34,065 nt of DNA from Cyclobacteriaceae bacterium (GTDB lineage Bacteria > Bacteroidota > Bacteroidia > Cytophagales > Cyclobacteriaceae), in NCBI GenBank assembly GCA_947458475.1, contig CANGZP010000019.1, positions 1 to 34,065 on the forward strand. Reading direction: 5' to 3'. The translations under genes and the position numbers were made by a program. The first letter of the stretch is position 1, and every line of letters begins with the position of its first letter. A model generated the notes under the pieces. It was not told the origin of the DNA. It ran no database searches and saw only the letters and a list, made by a program, of their open reading frames with translations. Of this stretch, positions 9,562 to 33,182 are shown piece by piece.

Positions 9562-9651
9562 GGGAGGAGGGATCTTGGGTATTGTTACGTAAAGAAACTG
9601 GAAGCGAAAGAAAAATCCATCCTGTTTTAGACAAATGGAGGAAAAAAAGTG

Positions 9652-9679
9652 GTCAACAGTCGACGGTCAACAGACGACA
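9652..9679 (+). repeat. Degenerate heptad array, GTCAACA type
   Basis: Four consecutive 7-bp units, GTCAACA, GTCGACG, GTCAACA and GACGACA, in exact phase. It lies in the 300-bp divergent gap between eboA and the M28 peptidase. The same GTCNACN type recurs at 11411 and 32276. Confidence 0.75.
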
Positions 9680-9718
9680 GCCGTGGCGGTATATGAATAG
9701 GATTAGAATCCATACTTC

Positions 9719-9790
9719 GTACTTGGCCTGCCCGCCGCGGCGGGTACTTGGTACATTGTACTTTAGTCTGTTAGCCGTTGACCGACTTTT
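9719..9790 (+). repeat. Degenerate heptad array, GTACNNN type, interrupted by a GC palindrome
   Basis: The units are GTACTTG (9719), then an 18-bp GC-rich interruption, then GTACTTG (9744), GTACATT and GTACTTT. A second short run, GTTAGCC then GTTGACC, follows at 9770-9783. Without the interruption the GTAC units are a continuous 7-bp series. The rest of the 9562-9861 gap shows no gene. Confidence 0.75.
9726..9743 (+). repeat. 18-bp GC-rich palindromic unit inserted in a heptad array
   Basis: The inserted unit is GCCTGCCCGCCGCGGCGG. With the following G it contains the perfect 14-bp palindrome CCCGCCGCGGCGGG at 9731-9744. It is flanked by two copies of GTACTTGG (9719-9726 and 9744-9751, each sharing an edge base with the unit). 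Closely related 18-nt units are in the superoxide dismutase gene at 32806-32841. Confidence 0.7.
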
Positions 9791-32408: not shown

Positions 32409-33182
32409 ATGAAAAACTACCCGAGTCGAAGAGAATTTTTAGCCACCACTGCCAAAGCAGGACTTACTGTAGGCCTGGTGGGTACGGCATTTTCAGACCT
32501 TCTTGCCCAAACCGCTCAAGCGGTAGCAGGCACTGGGTTTACCCAAAAGCCTTTGCCCTATGCCTACACGGCCCTCGAGCCGCACATCGATGCGCGCACG
32601 ATGGAGATTCACTACAGCAAGCATGCGGCTGCCTATGCGAGCAACCTTCGGGATGCCGCCAAGGAAGAAGGCGTTGATACGGCGCAGCCCTTGGAGCAAG
32701 TGCTGACCTCCATCTCGAAGTACTCCGCCAAAATGCGAAACAATGGAGGGGGGCATTACAATCACGAACTTTTCTGGAGTATTCTAGGGGCCCCTACAGA
32801 AGGAGGCCTGCCCGCTGCAGAGGGCGTGCCCGCCGTGGCGGGTCCGGATGGCGCGCTATTGAAAGCCATTAAAACTTCATTCGGGAGTTACGAAGCCTTT
32901 GTGAGCCAGTTTGAAACTGCTTCCAAAACTCGCTTCGGATCAGGTTGGGCATGGCTACTCGTAGATGCCACAGGGAAGCTCGTGGTAAGTTCCACACCCA
33001 ACCAAGACAATCCCCTAATGGATATTGCTGAAGTGAAGGGAACCCCGATTTTGGGCTTGGATGTGTGGGAGCATGCCTATTACTTGCACTACCAAAACCG
33101 CCGACCGGACTATGTAACTGCCTTTTGGAAGGTAGTCAACTGGAAGGCCGTAGCAGATCGCTTTGCGGCAGCGACAACCTAA
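32409..33182 (+). CDS. Exported Mn-type superoxide dismutase with a repeat-derived insertion
   Basis: A 257-residue Fe/Mn-family superoxide dismutase. The N-terminus has a twin-arginine motif (SRREFLATT) and a hydrophobic stretch ending near residue 35, so export by Tat is likely. Metal ligands are His68 ([10 protein letters not shown]), His119 ([10 protein letters not shown]), Asp218 and His222 ([10 protein letters not shown]). SGWAWLL and the [27 protein letters not shown] segments resemble Mn enzymes more than Fe enzymes. Residues 133-144 (GLPAAE then GVPAVA) form a two-unit hexapeptide repeat encoded by two copies of an 18-nt palindromic unit; this lengthens the stretch between FW and FGS by 12 residues over the usual value. 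Confidence 0.93.
32806..32841 (+). repeat. Two tandem 18-nt palindromic units inside the superoxide dismutase gene
   Basis: Unit 1 (32806-32823) is GCCTGCCCGCTGCAGAGG and unit 2 (32824-32841) is GCGTGCCCGCCGTGGCGG. They match the intergenic unit at 9726-9743 at 15 and 16 of 18 positions, in the same phase. Together they are 36 nt, in frame, encoding 12 residues. Confidence 0.7.

Follow-up and report, generated by a model that had tools for sequence, protein, structure and literature searches.

The window, by which we mean the whole 34,065-nucleotide stretch of Cyclobacteriaceae DNA analyzed here, carries at positions 32409 to 33182 of its forward strand a gene for a 257-amino-acid Fe/Mn superoxide dismutase (SOD), as evidenced by its open reading frame, its Pfam families (PF00081 and PF02777), and its relatives in the PDB. 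A sequence-only reading of the window had already named this gene a superoxide dismutase, and the matched domains, Sod_Fe_N at residues 44 to 126 and Sod_Fe_C at residues 146 to 251, agree with that identity. Between the two domains lie 36 additional bases (32807 to 32842), which take the form of two 18-mers resembling a repeat of the genome and which add twelve amino acids to the linker. The first part of the gene (32409 to 32520) also encodes an RREFL stretch, which we take to resemble a twin-arginine export signal.

The repeat is a GC-rich palindrome of 18 letters with the consensus (G)CCTGCCCGCCGYGGCGGG. On the forward strand of the SOD gene, unit 1 (32807 to 32824; CCTGCCCGCTGCAGAGGG) has three mismatches against this consensus, and unit 2 (32825 to 32842; CGTGCCCGCCGTGGCGGG) has one mismatch against its T variant. 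The sequence-only reading had placed the two units at 32806 to 32823 and 32824 to 32841 and had counted matches of 15/18 and 16/18, respectively, to an intergenic sequence at 9726 to 9743. Both counts were reproduced, and the two tandem 18-nt units stand, while their natural edges fall 1 base farther to the right. The intergenic sequence is an exact copy of the repeat, CCTGCCCGCCGCGGCGGG, at 9727 to 9744 of the forward strand, and it sits within a TACTTGG-type heptad array that extends on the same strand from 9713 to 9765, with edges set by eye. Around this array are a 14-nt direct repeat, GGTCAACAGTCGAC (window positions 9651 to 9678), and imperfect inverted arms of 22 nt (9659 to 9782).

Twelve extra residues had been said to explain an unusual spacing in the protein, and they do: the distance from the FW motif to FGS is 34 residues in the window SOD and 22 in most relatives (39 and 27 if the motif letters are counted). 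We examined 110 SOD loci, of which 35 yielded no motif. Among the 75 SODs yielding it, the spacing is 22 in 56, 34 in the window SOD only, and 25 in a single relative, G010; twelve values of 40 to 43 probably arose where the search pattern ran past the motif, as judged from the 10 that were inspected. No special RNA structure was found either for the SOD insert (z-score, -0.29) or for the 18-mer alone (z-score, -1.11).

Copies and edges of the 18-mer

The window genome (G000), an incomplete draft (78.7 percent, 188 contigs) that we infer to belong to Algoriphagus, holds many more copies. With up to one mismatch, the 16-mer TGCCCGCCGYGGCGGG gives 19 strand matches at 13 distinct places, and with up to three mismatches, the 18-mer gives 36 strand matches at 27 distinct places, both SOD units among them; the reversed pattern gives none in either search, and the numbers of distinct places are our own count from the strand matches. 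The unit therefore occurs elsewhere in its own genome far above the reversed control, as the earlier claim of a repeat had implied. Beyond this genome, the exact 16-mer was found in 19 of 58 genomes, all of them inside the 36 of the genus and none among the 22 outside it (control, 0/58). The 18-mer was found in 11 of 12 close genomes with up to two mismatches and in at least 52 of 72 genomes across the genus with up to one mismatch, with controls of 0 in both cases. Of 241 genomes sampled from the order, 6 contain the exact 18-mer, and 4 of these are among the 232 outside the genus.

The copies share little besides the unit itself. Their surroundings include TACTTGG heptads, GAAATA arrays, CTTTGCG arrays, and others; the flanks are unrelated, and copies nest inside other repeats. 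An alignment of 64 unique contexts has about 19 conserved positions, and every flanking position carries 0.6 bits or less. When exactly 18 bp were excised in silico and the joined flanks were compared with the fetched DNA, 14 of 66 sites gave an ungapped sequence that exists elsewhere, these matches being related repeats and not proven orthologous sites, whereas none of the 66 did so in any of eight controls shifted to distant positions. Permitting one gap raised the count to 20/66, against 0 or 1 in the controls. The ungapped joins fit a plain 18-bp excision and equally a 1-bp (G) duplication or, in heptad arrays, a 7-bp one. Exact joins of 10 plus 10 bases are too rare to fix the insertion edges (at most 3/64 at any offset and 1/64 at the plain 18-bp offset). 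For the intergenic copy of the window, the 18-mer is missing from the orthologous spacers of six relatives (G007, G006, G035, G002, G003, and G019), and the spacer of G002 retains the heptads without it. Insertion into the loops of host-repeat hairpins was considered and rejected: at 50 sites, the longest complementary run shared by the two flanks averaged 4.56, compared with 4.52 for permuted pairs, and 71 of 200 permutations reached the observed value.

Each unit is divisible by three in length and has no stop in the frame used by the SOD gene, as the sequence-only reading had noted; in fact, the 18-mer is open in all six reading frames. Copies in other genes were sought in two batches. The first comprised 166 distinct sites (up to two mismatches), 32 of them within open reading frames of at least 80 amino acids. 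Judged by eye, 29 of these 32 frames were spurious, either made by the repeat or with the repeat before the likely start, and three were real, namely, SOD in G000, SOD in G010, and hsdS in G014; among the fetched copies of the 12 close genomes, SOD was the sole gene judged real. In the second batch, 31 of 87 sites fell in frames of at least 80 amino acids, and the 18 rows with frames of at least 100 amino acids were inspected, yielding 12 sites in 11 genes judged real and 6 judged spurious. Nine of these 11 genes have a Pfam match above the cutoff, while L348 falls below it and L363 lay outside the scan. The nine supported genes, each with an in-frame 18-mer, are the hsdS genes of G058 and G063, the gmd gene of G065, three glycosyltransferase genes (G067, G068, and G076), a copper ATPase gene of G060, and, again in G063, hsdM together with an MBOAT gene.

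Comparison with solved structures places interruptions in three of these proteins. The Gmd query leaps from residue 297 to 349 where its relative passes from 289 to 298, the HsdM query leaps from 377 to 436 where its relative passes from 496 to 505, and the alignment of the copper ATPase breaks at 404 to 430. In all three, the insertion exceeds the length of the 18-mer. In hsdS, hsdM, and the MBOAT and copper ATPase genes, the 18-mer lies within a larger repeat, G[TC][TC]ATTGCG followed by the 18-mer and GAAGCAATC; since this is the arrangement in most coding cases other than SOD, the 18-mer may have arrived there as a passenger. The SOD gene, by contrast, has the 18-mers alone, without the larger repeat. 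In the hsdS genes of three species (L057, L345, and L354), the repeat module occupies approximately the same place, past the first specificity domain.

The SOD site among relatives

The insert is not private to the window genome. In an alignment of 30 SODs (row L047 excluded), extra residues of this kind occur in the window SOD and in G010 only, and a genus-wide search, which gave an SOD match in 71 of 72 genomes, added G085 as a carrier. Of the long-form SODs in the genus, 31 had their linker read (25 from the alignment and 6 more), and outside the window SOD, the twelve residues are missing from all of them except G010 and G085, which have related versions. This absence from relatives is what the insertion reading had predicted. 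The SOD site is thus occupied in three species, all represented by incomplete drafts, and empty in close relatives, including G006, G011, G026, and G035. Unit 1 reads CCTGCCCGCTGCAGAGGG in G000, CCTGCCCGCCGCGGAAGG in G010, and CCTACCCACCGCGGCGGG in G085, and taking the most frequent letter at every position across these three reproduces the repeat consensus exactly. The inserts of G010 and G085 are partly decayed, each in its own way: G010 keeps the left part of the consensus and G085 the right part.

Immediately 5' of the insert lies a 20-mer, GGGGCCCCTACAGAAGGAGG (32787 to 32806, forward strand). Among the 72 genus genomes, its exact copies are confined to SOD, in G000, G010, and G085. We considered whether this 20-mer is a mobile repeat in its own right and rejected the idea: beyond the three SODs, it gives only matches with three mismatches, about as many as the reversed control. 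The linker is hypervariable within the clade. In G088 and G090, it has a different gain of four residues containing the palindrome CCTTCCGCGGAAGG (L244 and L245).

The gene trees do not fully agree on the history of the insert. In SOD trees built without the linker, G000 pairs with G006, which has no insert, and G010 falls together with G035, G026, G011, and G085; because G010 stands apart from G000, one simple gain would need a loss or a transfer. The dapF tree, from which G035 is absent, has G085 at the base, then G010, then G011 with G026, and the SOD, mazG, and dapF trees are partly in conflict. At the positions across SOD and the MazG gene that distinguish G000 from a uniform G035/G026/G011 sequence, G010 mostly matches the latter; at 7 of these positions it is G000-like, three of them within 32826 to 32846. 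In three relatives, SOD is followed by a MazG-like gene, and a copy of the repeat lies a short way downstream of the latter (G010:C58:1691, G035:C158:1509, and G005:C87:12611).

Origin of the insert and known relatives of the repeat

Taken together, the absence of the insert from relatives, the dispersed copies, the excision joins, and the further coding copies support the original proposal that a palindromic mini-repeat was inserted into the SOD coding sequence, with the corrections given above, and suggest that the Algoriphagus 18-mer is probably a mobile mini-palindrome that tolerates insertion into coding sequence. We put the probability at about 0.84 that the insert derives from a dispersed, non-autonomous, mobile Algoriphagus mini-palindrome that was inserted in frame between the two SOD domains. 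Under this model, an 18-bp GC-rich palindromic repeat would have dispersed through Algoriphagus as a non-autonomous mobile sequence, and one copy would have landed in frame in the inter-domain linker, either in an ancestor of the G000, G010, and G085 lineages or in a donor to them. Another unit would then have been added beside it, through a further insertion or through duplication in tandem. The conserved edges and the excision joins suggest that the repeat moves as an 18-bp unit. Its SOD copy may be close to neutral because of its location in the linker, and a length divisible by three with no stop in six frames may be what lets the repeat survive in genes. The SOD insert is probably old, and the likeliest reason for its patchy presence in closely related species is an early gain followed by loss, or the exchange of alleles by recombination. 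A stronger version of the model, which we hold tentatively and at slightly under even odds, is that the 18-bp sequence itself is the mobile unit, which inserts cleanly with a target-site duplication of at most 1 base, mostly into repeats, and writes LPAAAG, PARRGG, and RHGGQ into many unrelated Algoriphagus proteins, SOD being the barest case.

Chance is a very improbable source of the resemblance. It would require a linker rich in proline, alanine, and glycine that grew by slippage and whose GC-rich codons look like the repeat by accident. The hypervariability of the linker would suit this idea, as would a synonymous-codon test, in which codons were redrawn from the genes of the window with the amino acids held fixed and in which unit 1 by itself was not significant (P of about 0.07). 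Yet in that same test, unit 2 fits the repeat better than resampled codons do (P of about 0.0014), as do both units jointly (P of about 0.0004); moreover, the two units are in tandem and in register, the reversed control is 0 at up to three mismatches, and G010 and G085 retain opposite parts of the consensus. Unit 2 could have arisen by tandem duplication or through an insertion at a later time. That a single insertion was followed by duplication of unit 1 into unit 2 is plausible, although we lean somewhat against it. The spacing of exactly 18 nt, the identical phase, and the lack of a clear unit 2 in G010 all favor duplication, whereas unit 2 has a CCGTGG variant that is also present elsewhere in the genome (C28:10636) and, of the two units in the gene, is the one nearer to the repeat. 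These two features suit a later insertion, but a similar picture would be expected had unit 1 been duplicated before it decayed.

Whether the SOD variant descended vertically or crossed from one species to another through homologous recombination of short tracts is nearly an even question, tipped a little toward descent. The mosaic of G010, which is mostly G035/G026/G011-like and yet resembles G000 at 7 sites, three of them at 32826 to 32846, and the 20-mer that is identical next to the insert in all three carriers both point to exchange; the dapF tree, however, would permit one gain and a few losses. Loss and short-tract exchange are both possible. A REP-type nature for the palindrome, with movement by a RAYT (Y1, HuH) transposase, is unlikely. 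Y1_Tnp genes are present in 49 of the 58 genomes searched (48 above the cutoff), with 7 matches in the window genome, and at one locus of that genome (G000:C11, L326), the transposase gene is flanked at 552 to 571 and 1312 to 1330 by ACCCGCC..GGCGGGT palindromes that resemble the repeat core. This was the one locus with a core-like palindrome nearby among 20 taken from a longer list, including 6 of the 7 window-genome matches; the other 19 lack a core-like match at up to four mismatches. Nor is the REP tag enriched: GT[AG]G occurs within 10 nt of the repeat in 3/64 contexts, compared with 5/64 at a control position, and its downstream complement occurs in 6/64, compared with 4/64. CGTC was seen beside the repeat in 3/64 contexts, a count that has no control position. 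With no tag found and no flanking position above 0.6 bits, identity with a classical REP was rejected, and the link to RAYT is weak.

In its nesting inside other repeats, the 18-mer recalls the cyanobacterial SDR sequences attributed to Elhai et al. in 2008, which reportedly measure about 21 to 27 bp, are mobile as whole units, and can lie inside other repeats. These belong to a different phylum, and the likeness is one of description, not of sequence.

The sequence-only reading had likened the insert to the Rickettsia palindromic elements, and one half of that likeness holds. According to PMC2229807, which describes the elements of Ogata et al. 2000, these are dispersed palindromes that occupy intergenic DNA and also lie in frame within conserved protein genes, as the 18-mer is in the genes for SOD, HsdS, HsdM, Gmd, the copper ATPase, the MBOAT protein, and the glycosyltransferases. 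The same paper gives their length as 105 to 146 bp, far above 18 bp (conserved block, 18 to 19 bp), so identity was rejected and the comparison, made by description and not by sequence, is an analogy only; the 18-mer also differs in belonging to Bacteroidota and in often nesting in other repeats. The GTAG/CGTC REPs, as described by Di Nocera et al. 2013 (PMC3733652), are likewise short palindromes, mostly intergenic but at times in frame within the genes of several species, and often arranged as dimers or groups; the Algoriphagus repeat has neither the GTAG enrichment nor, at the 20 loci taken, a consistent RAYT neighbor. Yeast mitochondrial GC clusters, as described in PMC4478555, are GC-rich palindromes too, and they proliferate, merge, and cross species by recombination at conserved flanks; they differ in being longer (GC42 has 42 nt), in having a putative target-site duplication, and in residing in an organelle.

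Small palindromic repeats that enter genes are a known kind, with coding insertions reported for Rickettsia and several REP-rich species in PMC2229807 and PMC3733652. Within the phylum, PMC6006769 describes in-frame REP insertions in transposase genes belonging to a subclass abundant in Bacteroidetes and Cyanobacteria, which provides a precedent for coding insertion of palindromes. Titles and opening lines of abstracts from the open-licence literature on repeats in Algoriphagus, Cyclobacteriaceae, and Bacteroidetes do not describe the 18-mer. The unit described here is much shorter and occurs in several conserved enzymes in an environmental genus of Bacteroidota. With one site that is empty in some close species, occupied in another, and decayed in others, the spread of the palindrome and the question of whether proteins tolerate it or use it are directly testable.

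A related core, TCCGCCGCGGCGGA, occurs in the window genome within a tRNA-Met-like sequence (L220:1507-1591, on the minus strand of G000:C29) just upstream of an intact tRNA-Met. ARAGORN does not call this sequence, which is possibly a tRNA copy struck by the repeat.
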